Shown: positions 6,745 through 51,867 of the stretch, piece after piece
How the letters are laid out: each line of letters opens with the position of its first letter
Position numbering within the stretch: the stretch's first letter is position 1
Source of the DNA: Lachnospiraceae bacterium
GTDB taxonomy: Bacteria; Bacillota; Clostridia; Lachnospirales; Lachnospiraceae
Assembly (NCBI GenBank): GCA_017518735.1
Contig: JAFWTY010000001.1
Span: 1-64,000, forward strand
DNA: 64,000 nucleotides
Direction of reading: 5' to 3'
Notes under the pieces: model-generated
What the model was told of the DNA's origin: nothing
Database searches by the model: none
The model's input: only the letters and a program-made list of their open reading frames with translations
Program-made: the position numbers and the translations under genes

Positions 6745-7146
6745 ATGAATAAAATTATAGCTGCTTGTGGTAATGACTGCACGGCCTGCCCGAGATATGT
6801 AGCGCATCCTTATGAAAAAACGGATGAAGAGCTAAAGCATACTGCGGAGTTATGGATGAAAATCGGGTACAGAGATCATATTGTGACCAATGAAGAGATT
6901 TCCTGTATGGGATGTAAACCCGAGAACTGGTGCAGGTACCATGTGGTAAAATGTTGCGAAGATAAAGGGATAAGTAACTGCTCCGAATGTGCAGACTATC
7001 CTTGTTCCGATATGAAGGAGTGTTTTGAAATAACAAAGTCTTTTGAACCAATGTGTAAGCAGGTTTGTACCGAAGAAGAGTATGCCCGGATGAAAGCGGC
7101 TTTTTTTGAAAAAGAACTGAATTTAAAAATGAAAAAACAGGGCTAA
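6745..7146 (+). CDS. DUF3795 Cys-rich protein
   Basis: A 133-residue protein of the DUF3795 family, rich in paired cysteines: CGNDCTAC at the N-terminus, CMGC, WCRYHVVKCC, CSECADYPC near the middle and MCKQVC at the end. The Cys pattern suggests binding of zinc or an iron-sulfur cluster; no function is established as far as I know. ATG 6745 is used because AAGGAG (6731-6736) lies 8 bases before it; the upstream ATG at 6706 has no such site and gives a non-conserved leader. It follows a GNAT gene, a pairing that suggests a small stress or detoxification unit but proves nothing. Confidence 0.82.
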   Translation: MNKIIAACGNDCTACPRYVAHPYEKTDEELKHTAELWMKIGYRDHIVTNEEISCMGCKPENWCRYHVVKCCEDKGISNCSECADYPCSDMKECFEITKSFEPMCKQVCTEEEYARMKAAFFEKELNLKMKKQG

Positions 7147-7225
7147 ATCGCAAGAAGATTTACAGCGACTGAAAGACCAAAAGAGAATATCCAGTGGAAG
7201 AAATCAAAAGGAAAGAGGTAAGGAT

Positions 7226-8137
7226 ATGCAATTAATGAGTTTAAAATGCCCGAATTGTGACGGACCGCTTAAGATGGTAAAAGAGGGGACATTTTATTGC
7301 GCAAATTGCGATTCTGCATTTATGGCAGATTATGACAAGGACGATCTGGAATACCAGAAAATGAAAGTGGAAGCAGAGATACGCAAACAGCAGCTGAACC
7401 AGGCGCAGACCGGGGTGGAAGTTCAGAAAAGCCAGGCAAAGGATCGTTTTCGAATCAAGGTGATCATCATTGCGTTGGTTGCAACATTCGTTCTCATCGT
7501 TACGGTGCCAACGGTGATTATTACATTGCAGTCGGAGAAAAAAGCAGTAGAAACACGCATACAGGAAGAAAAAGAAAGACAGGAACGCCAGAAAGCGGAA
7601 GAAAAAGAGGAAGAAGAAAAACGCAAGCAGGAAGAAGCAGAAAAAGAAGCGGAGCGTAAGGCAAAGCTGGCTTCCTATAGACTGACGGCGGAAGGACTGA
7701 CTTCGGATGAGTTTTTTGTAGAAAACGCTAACAAGGCTTTAGAAGTGCAATTATGGGACAATACCAGCCTCTTTTATGACGATTGGGTATGGAACGAAGA
7801 TCCCGAGTATATTACAAGCTTTTTCCTTACAGCAAAGGACGAAAATGAAAGTGTTCAGAACATACTTGTCAGCATTTACAAAATCCACTGGGATAAAGAG
7901 GACGATGACGGCACGGATCATTACGTGATTTACGATGGTGCAATATTAAAGAATATTTCAAAAAATGAGGATGGAACGATTCGCTGTGATTATGATCCTG
8001 ATGAACTATCCTACCACAGTGAACTCGTAAGGAACCAGTATTTGAGCGGATACACGGAGTATGATCAGTTGATTCGTCAGGAAATTTACGGCAATGGGGA
8101 CTATGAATACTTTGAGTTCACCATGCCTCAGAATTGA
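7226..8137 (+). CDS. Zinc-ribbon, single-pass membrane protein with coiled coil
   Basis: A 303-residue protein of unknown function. Residues 8-33 form a zinc ribbon (CPNC ... CANC). A charged linker is followed by one membrane helix (about 77-101, KVIIIALVATFVLIVTV), then a Glu/Lys/Arg-rich coiled coil (about 105-145), and a C-terminal domain of about 150 residues rich in Asp, Trp and Tyr that would lie outside the cell. The zinc ribbon would stay in the cytoplasm. Such zinc-ribbon-TM proteins are common in Lachnospiraceae; the protein at 46221 has the same plan. A GGAAAGAGG site precedes ATG 7226. It appears to be single or last in its unit. Confidence 0.7.
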   Translation: MQLMSLKCPNCDGPLKMVKEGTFYCANCDSAFMADYDKDDLEYQKMKVEAEIRKQQLNQAQTGVEVQKSQAKDRFRIKVIIIALVATFVLIVTVPTVIITLQSEKKAVETRIQEEKERQERQKAEEKEEEEKRKQEEAEKEAERKAKLASYRLTAEGLTSDEFFVENANKALEVQLWDNTSLFYDDWVWNEDPEYITSFFLTAKDENESVQNILVSIYKIHWDKEDDDGTDHYVIYDGAILKNISKNEDGTIRCDYDPDELSYHSELVRNQYLSGYTEYDQLIRQEIYGNGDYEYFEFTMPQN

Positions 8138-46220: not shown

Positions 46221-47993
46221 ATGGGAACAGGATTTGATACAAGATTCATATTTTGCCCAAGATGCGGTGCCTTAATGGAACCGCCGTACTGCAATGTGTG
46301 CGGATATGATCTTCGTAACGTGCCGGTGGAAGAACCTGTGGCACAGCCGCCCATGGTATCGGATCCGAACCCGAATCCTCCGATGCCGGAACCGGAACCT
46401 GTTGCTGAAACTCCATCGAATGCACAAAAGCCGCTCGCGCAACCTCCGGTGAATGCGCAACAGCCTCAGATCATTCTTCAAAAAGTGGATGAGGTTGAGA
46501 AGAAAGCACGCAAGAAAAAGAAGTGGGTGATTATCGGAATTGCCATCGGAGTCGTCGGAATTCTTTTGATCATTGCAGGACCTGTTATTGCATTGATTCG
46601 TGATTCCATGGATCTGGCAGCTGCAAGAAAACGTGCCGGAAACATTAATCAGCCGGGTTCTTCAATCATGGCAAGCGGATCGGACAGCGAGATTGGATCG
46701 GAGCTTACATCGGAGGCTCAGGGAGTTGTCGGAAAAAGACATTTTGGCAGATTCGACCATCAGGGATTGGATTTTTCATTCTATGAAAACATGGCCGATG
46801 TAGCCGGAAAAACCGCGTCGGGAGCATATGATCCGTTTTTGAACAAGGACAATGTTACCGTTTACAACGATTCGGATTATGTCTTTGATGCATCCCATAC
46901 CAACTATAAGCCCGAGCAGATGGGGCCGGATTATTACGAACCGTTTTGCGATTGCATCGATGAAATCAGTTACAGCGACCAGTATCAGATTCACAGAGAA
47001 TACTATTTCTTTGATGATATGATGGGAAGCCAGCGCGTGATCGCCAATGTGGCATATGCCCAGCTTTCCGGTAATATTCCGAATCTGGATGCACTGAATC
47101 AGGAGATTTTTGAAAGAAGCGCATCGGATCTTTTGAATTTTTACAACGGATCGTCTGTATATTCCATGTATGTGTTTAACCAGATTGTTTTTTCGACGGA
47201 TTCGTACATTGTTTACAATGACGGAAAGAAAATGAGTATTCTTCTGGATGTTGTAGTTCATACGGATGATTACTCAATGAACCTGGATTCCTATATCTAC
47301 GCAATCAATATCGACCTTGAAAACGGGGTGATCATTGAAAACGATCAGATTTTGAATCTGGACGAAACGTTTGCCGCTGACTTCAGAAGAAGATGTTATA
47401 CTCAGAACGGCAGCAATTCGGCTTTGGATCCTTGGGACAACACTGAGGTTTGCGAGTTTTTGAATGACAAAGAAACCAACATTGTGTTCTTTACACCGCT
47501 CGGAATCGAAATCGGAATGTGCTATGTCGGAGAAGAGGATATCTTAAGCAGAGGCTGGATGACGGTAACGTTAAAAACAGGTGAGTATGAAAGAAGATAT
47601 CTGATGGATCAGTCGCTTACCTCGACGGGAAAAGCGGGCAGAGATCCGAAGGATCCCCAGTATTCCGATTTGAACGGTACCTGGATTCATATCGATCCGG
47701 ACCTTGCAAAAGAGGAAATGGAAGCTTTTAAAGCAACCTATCCCAACTATAACTGGGATGAGTTGGACTTCCTGGAAAGTGAAACCCCGAAAAACAATTT
47801 TGGAAAAAAGACCGGTGGAACGACCGAGGAGGAATCGGAGGAAAAATCCGAAGAACCTTCGGATGCAGACCCGGGAGAATCGTCTTCGTGGAAAAAGGGA
47901 CGAGATGGTTTGAAAGAGTATTTTGACAGCCTTCCAAAGAAAAAGGACGGCGAGAAATTTACTTCGGATGAATATTTTCGTATCCCGAGATGA
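46221..47993 (+). CDS. Zinc-ribbon membrane protein of unknown function
   Basis: A 590-residue protein that begins with a short zinc ribbon (CPRCGALMEPPYCNVCG, about 12-28). A Pro-rich linker (about 35-80, many PxP and EP pairs) leads to a positively charged stretch and one membrane helix (about 104-125, WVIIGIAIGVVGILLIIAGPVIALI). About 460 residues then face outwards: a folded part rich in Asp, Tyr and Asn with strands like YQIHREYYFFDDMMG, then an acidic, Ser/Glu-rich C-terminus (EEESEEKSEEPSDADPGESS). No catalytic motif is recognised. The plan equals that of the protein at 7226. It begins right after cinA and stands upstream of the Cys-rich/radical SAM pair. Confidence 0.75.
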   Translation: MGTGFDTRFIFCPRCGALMEPPYCNVCGYDLRNVPVEEPVAQPPMVSDPNPNPPMPEPEPVAETPSNAQKPLAQPPVNAQQPQIILQKVDEVEKKARKKKKWVIIGIAIGVVGILLIIAGPVIALIRDSMDLAAARKRAGNINQPGSSIMASGSDSEIGSELTSEAQGVVGKRHFGRFDHQGLDFSFYENMADVAGKTASGAYDPFLNKDNVTVYNDSDYVFDASHTNYKPEQMGPDYYEPFCDCIDEISYSDQYQIHREYYFFDDMMGSQRVIANVAYAQLSGNIPNLDALNQEIFERSASDLLNFYNGSSVYSMYVFNQIVFSTDSYIVYNDGKKMSILLDVVVHTDDYSMNLDSYIYAINIDLENGVIIENDQILNLDETFAADFRRRCYTQNGSNSALDPWDNTEVCEFLNDKETNIVFFTPLGIEIGMCYVGEEDILSRGWMTVTLKTGEYERRYLMDQSLTSTGKAGRDPKDPQYSDLNGTWIHIDPDLAKEEMEAFKATYPNYNWDELDFLESETPKNNFGKKTGGTTEEESEEKSEEPSDADPGESSSWKKGRDGLKEYFDSLPKKKDGEKFTSDEYFRIPR

Positions 47994-48050
47994 GAAACAA
48001 AAAGTGTTTGAAACTGTTTTGTGTTTGTCACAAGAAAGGAACGGACGATT

Positions 48051-48569
48051 ATGAAGGGAAAAGAAAAGTGTAAGGCTTTAAAGGAAATTCGCAGAAGGAT
48101 TGCGGAACAAAACGATATTGAATATGCAGTCAGAGAATGCAGCCATAAGGGTGATTGCAAAGGAACCTGCCCCAGATGTGAGGCAGAAGTTCTTTACCTG
48201 GAAAGGGAACTTGAAAAGAGAAGAAGTCTCGGAAAGAAAGTTGCGGTTACCGGCCTTGCGGTTGGTATGGCTGCGACAATCAGCGGATGCCAGAATCCGT
48301 TTACAACTGTATGGAACACCGTTACGGGCAATAACGGCGGACAGGTTGTGGAATTAGGCGGAGATGCGGAACCTCCCCTGGGAGGAGAAGCGATGCCCGA
48401 AGTGGAATCCAACAGTATTGTGGAACTTGACGGTGATGTAGCTTATGTGGAACCGTCCGAAGAATGCTCCAATGACGGTTGTGATCCTGTAGAGGAAGAC
48501 GGATCCGAGGAGTACAGTGATCAACCGATAGGCCCTGAGTCCGGTGAAATTGTTGAAGACCTTCCTTAA
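48051..48569 (+). CDS. Small Cys-rich protein next to a radical SAM enzyme
   Basis: A 172-residue protein I cannot assign to a named function. The first 50 residues hold the motif VRECSHKGDCKGTCPRCEAE (Cys30, 36, 40, 43; also Cys7), which looks like a metal or iron-sulfur site, followed by the helix LYLERELEKRRSLGKK. Residues 64-80 (VAVTGLAVGMAATISGC) resemble a membrane stretch with a lipobox-like ISGC at Cys80. The rest is acidic, low in complexity and has ECSNDGC (Cys139, Cys144). Proteins with this CxGTCPxCExE pattern are, as I recall, usually beside a radical SAM gene; here that gene starts 24 bases later. ATG 48051 follows AAGAAAGGA. Confidence 0.65.
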   Translation: MKGKEKCKALKEIRRRIAEQNDIEYAVRECSHKGDCKGTCPRCEAEVLYLERELEKRRSLGKKVAVTGLAVGMAATISGCQNPFTTVWNTVTGNNGGQVVELGGDAEPPLGGEAMPEVESNSIVELDGDVAYVEPSEECSNDGCDPVEEDGSEEYSDQPIGPESGEIVEDLP

Positions 48570-48593
48570 TATGATCAGTAGGGAGAACCGCCA

Positions 48594-49274
48594 ATGGAAG
48601 ATTTGAAACTACCGATTCTCGCCATTGAAAGACTACGCATGATGACGGACGGAGAAGGGGTAACAACTTTGATTTGCTCCATGAACTGTCCGCTCCGTTG
48701 CAGGCTTTGTATCAATCCTTATACCTGGGACGGAACCAAGGCCAGCGAAGTTCTTTCCGTGGATGGACTTTATGAGAGAGTAAAAATCGACAATTTGTAT
48801 TTCCAGACCACGGGAGGTGGACTTACGTTCGGCGGAGGCGAGCCTCTTGTACACAGTAAGTTCCATGCGGCTTTTATGGAAAAGTACCAAAGCACGGGCT
48901 GGGCGTTTAATCTGGAAAGTTCCCTGCAGGCTCCGTTTGAGAACTTAGAGAGAGTCATTCCTTACATTTCCTGCTATGCAATCGATGTCAAGGATATGGA
49001 ACCTGAGCGGTACAGGGAATATACGGGCGGAGATTTTCAGGTGTTTTTTGATAATCTGATGAAGTTAAAAGACCGTGTGGAAGAAGATAAGATCATTCTG
49101 AAAATCCCGAAGATTCCTTATCTGCATAAGGGCGATGAACAAAAGGAGAATGAAGAAAAACTTCGAAAACTCGGTTTTTCGAATATTGTGCTGTTCAACT
49201 ATGTGGATCCGAAAAAGCGGAAAAAACTGAGCGAAACAGCTTTGGAAAACAGAGGAAAACTAATTACGGAATAG
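48594..49274 (+). CDS. Radical SAM protein, activase-like
   Basis: A 226-residue radical SAM protein. The cluster motif is CPLRCRLC (CxxxCxxC) near residue 29, the SAM-binding GGGEP segment appears as LTFGGGEPLVHS, and a later strand YAIDVKDMEPERY matches the pyruvate formate-lyase activase group (there 'DLK' type). It has no extra SPASM-type cysteine-rich C-terminus. It is shorter than PflA (about 245). No glycyl-radical enzyme is nearby; the partner upstream is the Cys-rich protein at 48051. A GGGAGAA site stands before ATG 48594. It probably modifies or activates a protein, and that protein may be its neighbour. Confidence 0.82.
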   Translation: MEDLKLPILAIERLRMMTDGEGVTTLICSMNCPLRCRLCINPYTWDGTKASEVLSVDGLYERVKIDNLYFQTTGGGLTFGGGEPLVHSKFHAAFMEKYQSTGWAFNLESSLQAPFENLERVIPYISCYAIDVKDMEPERYREYTGGDFQVFFDNLMKLKDRVEEDKIILKIPKIPYLHKGDEQKENEEKLRKLGFSNIVLFNYVDPKKRKKLSETALENRGKLITE

Positions 49275-49282
49275 AGTGTGTT

Positions 49283-49972
49283 ATGGAGATTTATTTGCTT
49301 CGTCACGGTGTGACGGAATGGAACGATTTGTATAAGATTCAGGGAGCGACTGATATTCCCTTAAATGCGGACGGCGTTGAAATGGCAAGACAGACGGGAG
49401 AGTATATGAAAGAGAACGGAATCACTTTCGATGCCGTTTATTCTTCACCTTTGGACCGTGCATATCAGTCGGCCAAAATGGTTTCCGGAAGCGGGAACAT
49501 CATTAAAGATGAAAGACTTAGAGAGATGACGTTCGGAAAGCAGGAAGGACTGTCTTTGCAGGAACTTAAAGCAAACGATGATATTCCGTTTAAGTGTTTT
49601 AAGAATGCGCCTTCTCAGTATGATGTACTGGTTGCAGCCTACGATCCCGAGGGAGAAAGCTTTGAAGAGTTAATCAACCGTGCTACATCCTTTATCAAAG
49701 AGGTCATTGAAGGAAAAGAAGCTTCGCAGGAAACCGAAGGACAGAAACGCCGGATTTTGATTTCCGGGCACGGAGCGTTGGACCAGGCGATACTTTTTTA
49801 CATCAGAAAAAGAGAAAATATCGACGAATTCTGGAAGGGAGGACTGCTTCCGAACTGCGGAATCGACGTAATCGAATATGATGCGGCAAGCGGTGAATAC
49901 ACGTTTGCCGAGGAAATGGCTTATTATTACAGCAAGGAATTGTTCGATAAGTCGCCGAAACTGTTGAAATAG
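49283..49972 (+). CDS. Histidine phosphatase family protein
   Basis: A 229-residue phosphoglycerate mutase-like phosphatase. The catalytic LRHGVTEWN motif (His8), the SSPLDRAYQSA Arg, the acid-base Glu of EMTFGKQEG and the second His in ISGHGALDQAIL are present. Broad substrate range is normal for the family (phosphosugars, alpha-ribazole phosphate, nucleotides). It starts 8 bases after the radical SAM gene with no visible strong site, so coupling is likely. Confidence 0.85.
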   Translation: MEIYLLRHGVTEWNDLYKIQGATDIPLNADGVEMARQTGEYMKENGITFDAVYSSPLDRAYQSAKMVSGSGNIIKDERLREMTFGKQEGLSLQELKANDDIPFKCFKNAPSQYDVLVAAYDPEGESFEELINRATSFIKEVIEGKEASQETEGQKRRILISGHGALDQAILFYIRKRENIDEFWKGGLLPNCGIDVIEYDAASGEYTFAEEMAYYYSKELFDKSPKLLK

Positions 49973-50135: not shown

Positions 50136-50828
50136 ATGATTTACTCAACAGAAGTCAAGAATATGTGCCCCGTTACCCAGGGTGTACATCATGGCGCTGC
50201 TCCCATCCCCGAAGAGGCAAAATGGGTACAGGCAAAGAAGATTGAGGACATTTCCGGTTATACCCATGGTATCGGCTGGTGCGCACCTCAGCAGGGAGCT
50301 TGCAAGCTTTCCTTAAACGTGAAGGACGGTATCATTCAGGAAGCGCTGGTAGAAACCATCGGCTGCTCCGGTATGACCCATTCCGCAGCAATGGCTGCTG
50401 AAATTCTTCCCGGACTTACCATTTTGGAAGCATTGAATACCGACCTTGTTTGCGATGCAATCAACACCGCAATGAGAGAGTTATTCTTACAGATTGTTTA
50501 CGGCAGAACCCAGTCCGCATTCTCCGAGGACGGTCTCCAGATCGGTGCGGGTCTTGAAGACTTAGGAAAGGGTGCCCGTTCCATGGTTGGTACCACTTAC
50601 GGAACACTTGAAAAAGGACCCAGATATCTGGAACTTACCGATGGATACATCACCGGTATTGCTCTTGATGAGAACGATGAAATCATCGGCTACAAGTACA
50701 TCAACTTTGGTAAGTTCATGGACTTCATGAAGAAAGGCGATGACGCTCAGACCGCTCTTGATAAGGCTTCCGGACAGTATGGCCGTGTAGCAGACGCAGT
50801 AAAAATTGTAGATCCGAGAAAAGAGTAA
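50136..50828 (+). CDS. NifU-like iron-sulfur cluster scaffold
   Basis: A 230-residue protein with a NifU/IscU-like N-terminal domain. Cysteines at the expected spots are Cys12 (NMCPVTQG), GWCAPQQGACKL and ETIGCSGMTHSAAMAAEIL. The last is the usual 'GC..s.Ass' cluster-binding turn. The remaining 100 residues include KGARSMVGTTYGTLEKGPRYLELTDGYI and are not part of classic NifU. The site AAAGGAGG (50123-50130) is excellent and codon use is strongly biased. The next gene is the GGGtGRT protein; the two appear to be a fixed pair in anaerobic Firmicutes, so this scaffold may supply a cluster to that partner. Confidence 0.82.
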   Translation: MIYSTEVKNMCPVTQGVHHGAAPIPEEAKWVQAKKIEDISGYTHGIGWCAPQQGACKLSLNVKDGIIQEALVETIGCSGMTHSAAMAAEILPGLTILEALNTDLVCDAINTAMRELFLQIVYGRTQSAFSEDGLQIGAGLEDLGKGARSMVGTTYGTLEKGPRYLELTDGYITGIALDENDEIIGYKYINFGKFMDFMKKGDDAQTALDKASGQYGRVADAVKIVDPRKE

Positions 50829-50847
50829 GAAAGGGAGGACTAAAAAT

Positions 50848-51867
50848 ATGGCATTATTTGAATCATATGAAAGAAGAGAGCCTCAGATTCTTGCTTGCTT
50901 AAAAGAGTACGGCATCTCTTCCATTGAAGAGTGTAAGGATATCTGCGATGCTGCAGGTATTGATGTGTATCATTTAATCGAGGGCATTCAGCCTATCTGC
51001 TTTGAAAATGCAAAATGGGCATACACCGTTGGTGCTGCCATTGCAATTAAGAAAAATTGCCGCAAGGCTGCTGACGCTGCTGCAGCAATCGGTATCGGAC
51101 TCCAGGCATTCTGCATTCCCGGTTCCGTAGCTGACCGTCGTAAAGTAGGTCTTGGACATGGTAACCTTGGAAAAATGCTTCTGGAAGAAGACACCGAGTG
51201 CTTCGCATTCCTTGCAGGACATGAGTCCTTCGCAGCTGCAGAAGGTGCTATCGGTATCGCAGAGAAGGCTAACAAAGTTCGTCAGAAACCGCTTCGTGTC
51301 ATCCTGAACGGTCTTGGAAAGGACGCTGCACAGATTATTTCCCGTATCAACGGATTTACCTATGTAGAGACCAAGTACAATTACTTCACCGGTGAGGTTG
51401 AGGAAGTATTCAGAAAGTGCTACAGCAAAGATCCCGAGTCACCTCGTGCTAAGGTTAACTGCTACGGTGCAAACGATGTTCAGGAAGGTGTTGCTATCAT
51501 GTGGAAGGAAAACGTTGACGTTTCCATCACCGGTAACTCCACCAACCCGACCAGATTCCAGCATCCCGTTGCAGGTACCTACAAGAAAGAGCGCGTAGAG
51601 GCAGGAAAGAAGTACTTCTCCGTAGCTTCCGGCGGTGGTACCGGACGTACCCTTCACCCGGATAACATGGCTGCAGGTCCTGCTTCCTACGGTATGACCG
51701 ATACCATGGGACGTATGCATTCCGATGCACAGTTCGCAGGTTCTTCATCCGTTCCCGCTCACGTAGAAATGATGGGTCTCATCGGTGCAGGTAACAACCC
51801 GATGGTTGGTATGACCGTTTCTACCGCAGTTTCCATCGAAGAAGCTGCAAAGGCTGGAAAGTTCTAA
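50848..51867 (+). CDS. GGGtGRT family protein
   Basis: A 339-residue protein named after its motif ASGGGTGRT (about residues 265-273). Other blocks are GLGHGNLGKMLLEEDTECFAFLAGHESFAAAEG (about 106-138) and TGNSTNPTRFQHPVAGTYKKE. Several Cys are spread along the chain (CLKEYG, ECKDICDAAG, ICFENAK), without a classic cluster motif. No signal peptide. The family (PF14057) has no established function that I know of. It lies 19 bases after the NifU-like gene, and a terminator follows at 51904. Codon choice (TAC, AAC, ACC, GGT) is like that of gapA and pgk in this window, so it should be an abundant protein. Confidence 0.85.
   Translation: MALFESYERREPQILACLKEYGISSIEECKDICDAAGIDVYHLIEGIQPICFENAKWAYTVGAAIAIKKNCRKAADAAAAIGIGLQAFCIPGSVADRRKVGLGHGNLGKMLLEEDTECFAFLAGHESFAAAEGAIGIAEKANKVRQKPLRVILNGLGKDAAQIISRINGFTYVETKYNYFTGEVEEVFRKCYSKDPESPRAKVNCYGANDVQEGVAIMWKENVDVSITGNSTNPTRFQHPVAGTYKKERVEAGKKYFSVASGGGTGRTLHPDNMAAGPASYGMTDTMGRMHSDAQFAGSSSVPAHVEMMGLIGAGNNPMVGMTVSTAVSIEEAAKAGKF

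Follow-up and report, generated by a model that had tools for sequence, protein, structure and literature searches.

A cysteine-rich protein and its radical SAM partner in many gut Clostridia and Bacteroidota suggest a protein-modification system not yet described

The window, that is, the whole 64,000-nucleotide stretch of a Lachnospiraceae bacterium contig (JAFWTY010000001.1) that was analysed, carries at 48051–48569 (+ strand) a gene for a 172-residue protein, recognised from its ORF, its homologues and their invariant residues. Translation of the ORF confirms the first description of this protein, with a CxxxxxCxxxCxxC site, ISGC80 closing a hydrophobic segment, and ECSNDGC within an acidic tail. 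The N-terminal Cys domain (residues 1–64; 48051–48242, +), delimited by conservation and a predicted helix-loop-helix, contains C7 and C30-x5-C36-x3-C40-x2-C43; the hydrophobic segment ending in the lipobox-like ISGC80 (residues 62–80; 48234–48290, +) was recognised by comparison of homologues; and motif enrichment defines three tail repeats, LGGDAEPP (residues 102–109; 48354–48377, +), LGGEAMP (residues 110–116; 48378–48398, +) and LDGDVAYVEP (residues 126–135; 48426–48455, +). The ORF of a dedicated 226-residue radical SAM enzyme follows after 24 nt (48594–49274, +; PF04055, E = 2.2e-10); the enzyme has a single CxxxCxxC site, no SPASM domain and the [4Fe-4S]/SAM motif C32PLRC36RLC39 at 48687–48710 (+). 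Next comes a histidine phosphatase (49283–49972, PF00300 match); the radical SAM enzyme and the phosphatase both lie where they were first placed. The upstream protein (46221–47993), initially called a zinc-ribbon membrane protein, does have short CxxC pairs in its N-terminal part and a single membrane segment, but matches a zinc ribbon only weakly (E = 0.039, short of the Pfam cut-off). A phosphatase neighbour occurs in just 3/28 congeneric loci, the zinc-ribbon protein is found in 19/28, and neither was recognised at the inspected loci outside the genus; both were rejected as members of the system, since they do not travel with the pair. Adjoining the locus at 50136–51867 is a NifU_N-like protein (below cut-off), with a GGGtGRT protein (PF14057, E = 1e-188) immediately after it.

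The linkage proposed in the first-pass annotation is also found in other genomes. The radical SAM gene lies directly downstream of the Cys-protein gene in 28/28 congeneric loci, the window included, with −11 to +149 nt between them. Among 250 Lachnospiraceae genomes, a Cys-domain profile gave 14 matches, 13 of them at E ≤ 1.7e-9, and the enzyme profile gave 13 genomes at E ≤ 1e-69, followed by a gap to about 1e-41; the two sets of 13 genomes are identical. A 14th genome (G149), with an intermediate match to the enzyme profile, holds a truncated remnant of 143 residues, without CxxxCxxC and without a Cys-domain gene. At class level, the Cys domain occurs in 11/343 Clostridia genomes and the enzyme in every one of these, adjacent in nine and fused in one of the 10 genomes besides the window, while in a phylum sample of 200 genomes, searched with a narrower Cys-domain profile, the window itself was the sole match. 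Pairwise distances are correlated between the two partners (Mantel r = 0.64, 0/2000 permutations as high), an association to which shared descent contributes. Fusions exist in opposite orders, Cys-rSAM in L056 and rSAM-Cys in L108, which is strong evidence that the Cys domain and the enzyme work together. On linkage, co-occurrence and fusions, the Cys protein and the radical SAM enzyme are a dedicated functional unit, and this unit most likely serves protein modification.

The first-pass annotation placed similar pairs in other gut Clostridia and Bacteroides, and the searches bear this out: outside Lachnospiraceae, the pair is found in other Clostridia families, in Bacteroidota and on prophage-type contigs. 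Two gut contigs entered in the databases as phage, and several IMG/VR contigs, also carry it. The architecture in Clostridia is a Cys domain followed by an anchor and acidic repeats, and that in Bacteroidota is a Cys domain followed by an anchor and TonB_C, in some cases with CarbopepD_reg_2. For instance, a Segatella copri plasmid encodes two Cys-TonB proteins and the enzyme, annotated as 'energy transducer TonB' and 'radical SAM protein'. Anchor-less forms combine the Cys domain with repeats and HIRAN (L115–L117) or with repeats alone (L118). In L118, a lipoprotein-like beta-flower repeat protein (Bflower_3, 7031–7378) lies directly downstream of the pair. In L049, L050, L053, L104, L105 and L119, a domain of ~270 residues (MRIxxTDxGxIWN...), without a Pfam or PDB match, is fused N-terminally to the Cys domain; the enzyme is the neighbour in every case, and the whole protein looks cytosolic. 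One gut contig deposited as phage (L060, 766–3952) encodes three Cys-domain paralogues in tandem, whose ends are CarbopepD-like and TonB-like, together with a single radical SAM enzyme. Orphan paralogues also occur: L029 keeps one motif copy, and the 110-residue protein of L114 (6226–6558, G013:C64) has one MVGNILPPE motif and no adjoining radical SAM gene, its host genome having a full pair elsewhere.

The cysteine residues of the N-terminal domain proved as conserved as the first-pass annotation required of them: C7, C30, C36, C40 and C43, together with R14, G34 and G38, are invariant in 54/54 paired loci, and an invariance that spans two phyla is more than chance. The domain has no model in Pfam, NCBIfam, PHROGs or PADLOC, and the whole protein has no Pfam match above cut-off. 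In the AF2 prediction the domain consists of two helices around the Cys loop (pLDDT about 66–84), within a low-confidence model of the 172-residue protein (pLDDT 58) for which no significant fold match was found; likewise, no significant solved relative of the domain was found, and the similarity of the Cys site to polyferredoxin MvhB is weak and non-significant (E = 0.4). The C-x5-C-x3-C spacing is in part shared with SPASM, of which the host genome has two matches only. Because five cysteines are invariant and the partner enzyme has the cysteines of its SAM cluster only, the Cys domain probably binds a metal or an Fe-S cluster.

The enzyme matches Radical_SAM (PF04055, as above) and Fer4_12 in Pfam. 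Its best NCBIfam resemblance is TIGR02494, with 108 bits against a cut-off of 174, and it scores below every NCBIfam cut-off, those of glycyl-radical enzyme (GRE) activases included. Its AF2 model (pLDDT 85.5) is closest among solved structures to PFL-AE (3c8f/3cb8), of which 3cb8 is the entry containing its Gly peptide. Across 54 loci just three cysteines of the enzyme are invariant, all in the SAM cluster, and the SPASM or twitch region of rSAM/SPASM maturases is lacking, no SPASM match having been obtained. In a FastTree phylogeny the enzyme clade stands apart from GRE activases with support 1.0. The absence of a glycyl-radical enzyme, noted at first for the locus, holds genome-wide for the Pfam Gly_radical model (PF01228), with 0 matches in the host genome and positive control genomes, and a GRE motif adjoins 0/27 loci of the clade versus 15/16 control activases; the 16 inspected controls are the best of the weaker matches to the enzyme profile, and none lies beside a Cys domain. 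With no glycyl-radical domain in the host genome, no GRE motif beside the 27 loci, a separate clade and NCBIfam scores below cut-off, identity as a GRE activase was rejected. In the same phylogeny, the two fusions form the deepest branches of the clade; subject to the caveats that long branches bring, this placement suggests that the Cys domain was originally part of the enzyme.

A permissive lipobox pattern follows the hydrophobic segment in 46/53 tail-bearing homologues, as in lipoproteins and DAG-RiPPs; L113 is without the lipobox Cys. In most homologues this Cys lies exactly 37 residues beyond the final Cys of the site, a conservation of position that is more than chance. Positive residues before the segment and acidic residues after it fit an N-in/C-out orientation. 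Most copies of the Cys protein have a lipobox-like anchor of this kind, from which their export is predicted. Lipoproteins and DAG-RiPPs have a short N-terminal n-region, but about 60 residues precede the signal-like segment here, and such a domain ahead of a lipoprotein signal would be an unusual arrangement.

The tail carries a repeated motif, [LIVM]xG[DE][VIAP], which had gone unrecorded in the first-pass annotation. It was observed 62 times in 32 non-redundant tails, versus 5.0 (sd 2.0) in shuffled tails (z = 28.7), and register-shifted control motifs showed no excess. The repeats are degenerate, with the consensus P-L-[EMD]-G-[DE]-V-x-[YP]-x-P; the strict motif is present in 28/28 congeneric tails, and the Cys protein of the window, with three copies, has the top density among the ORFs of the window. 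The motif is kept in the anchor-less homologues L115 and L118 and in Bacteroidota (L059), and so goes with the enzyme and not with membrane location. Both fusions and the ~270-residue variants lack LxG[DE], and the surroundings of these motif-less loci yielded no other protein that bears the motif. The glycyl loop of PFL, which is bound by PFL-AE, is RVSGYAV, and the tail repeats resemble its h-x-G-x-[A/V] core. The ECSNDGC element did not hold up as a conserved feature, the tail cysteines being variable across the 28 congeneric loci: five tails have no Cys and 10 have one. With 15/28 tails having fewer than two, tail cysteines were rejected as general thioether sites.

The explanation that we favour, with a probability of about 0.5, is that the Cys domain docks the radical SAM enzyme and delivers the tail repeats to it for modification, after which most members would be exported. 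The N-terminal domain of ~60 residues, probably with a metal or Fe-S cluster, would dock the enzyme and, where a separate protein carries it, would present the C-terminal tail of that protein; the L-x-G-[DE]-V repeats would be the likely modification sites, and the site of hydrogen abstraction by the PFL-AE-like enzyme may be the invariant glycine of each repeat or an adjacent position. Given the lipobox-like segment after the Cys domain, the modified tail of most members would then be exported and lipid-anchored, with the Cys domain staying in the cytosol like a leader. Tail-bearing members have the strict linkage, conserved N-terminal region and C-terminal repeats of a RiPP-type pair, and the L060 paralogues and the motif-bearing L029 orphan fit several substrates per enzyme. 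However, the motif-less fusions and ~270-residue variants argue against a simple leader-core model and indicate that some Cys domains come without a tail substrate; for these forms an accessory-cluster role of the domain would be as likely. A more specific proposal is offered tentatively, at well under even odds: the substrate's own Cys domain, acting as an Fe-S docking domain, would supply the auxiliary cluster to a minimal PFL-AE-like enzyme, which would modify LxG[DE]V repeats, centred on Gly, in envelope proteins of different phyla (in Clostridia the tails of lipoproteins, in Bacteroidota TonB proteins), and export would then remove the cluster domain.

The strongest alternative, which we regard as unlikely although it deserves weight, is that the Cys protein is an accessory subunit, serving as auxiliary Fe-S cluster or electron donor, with the substrate elsewhere and the tail a mere surface or anchor segment. 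The single cluster site of the enzyme beside five invariant cysteines in its partner, the deep-branching fusions, the motif-free variants and the faint MvhB similarity are all in keeping with such a subunit, but it leaves unexplained the strongly enriched tail motif, the multiple paralogues per enzyme and the motif-bearing orphan. The tail motif is equally unexplained if the Cys domain itself is the substrate, with the enzyme modifying one of the invariant glycines (G34, G38) or a cysteine, for instance to make a cofactor or thioether, and in cis in the fusions; the domain is the sole part common to all members and these glycines and its five cysteines are invariant, but the C-x5-C-x3-C-P-x-C spacing resembles that of a metal site, and we find this version rather improbable. 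Little credence is given to an envelope redox sensor or signalling device, in which the enzyme's mark would report iron or redox state and not yield a peptide product: the attached output domains do vary (TonB_C, CarbopepD_reg, HIRAN, acidic tails), but no regulator is conserved beside the pair. An ordinary GRE activase with an unrelated neighbour, for which the TIGR02494 resemblance and the PFL-AE-like model might speak, is extremely improbable in view of the missing glycyl-radical partners and the well-supported separate clade.

The central idea of the first-pass annotation, that a small Cys protein and its radical SAM enzyme form an undescribed system, is supported by the linked genes and the invariant N-terminal cysteines; sequence narrows the choice among the roles it offered for the small protein, as substrate, donor or carrier. 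The literature search found no paper describing the pair, and three known systems are comparable. PFL-AE and GRE activases (TIGR02494) share the radical SAM core and the CxxxCxxC, GGGE and DxK motifs; unlike them, the enzyme here is shorter and has a near-obligate Cys-domain partner and no GRE in genome or loci. The rSAM/SPASM maturases of RiPPs (sactipeptide, ranthipeptide, streptide) likewise have a radical SAM gene beside a precursor-like protein and evoke the auxiliary-cluster idea, whereas here SPASM is lacking, the Cys-rich domain is in the partner and tail cysteines are not conserved. DAG-RiPPs are RiPP-lipoprotein hybrids made by MNIO enzymes; the mining section of the paper on them deals with MNIO precursors together with some autoinducing peptides, and the family described here is not among its subjects (PMC12636315). 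They resemble the present proteins in having modified repeats, here predicted, on a protein with a lipoprotein signal, but the enzyme here is a radical SAM and not an MNIO enzyme, and a 60-residue Cys domain lies ahead of the signal. Since MNIO-made hybrids are known, the general route has precedent (PMC12636315).

If the favoured explanation is true, radical SAM enzymes of the GRE-activase type would gain a second line of work, on repeats of exported proteins of gut anaerobes, and their guide would be a portable Cys domain that has no Pfam or NCBIfam entry. It would also explain a clade of enzymes now labelled merely 'radical SAM protein', and would extend the newly recognised RiPP-lipoprotein hybrids by a radical-SAM branch.
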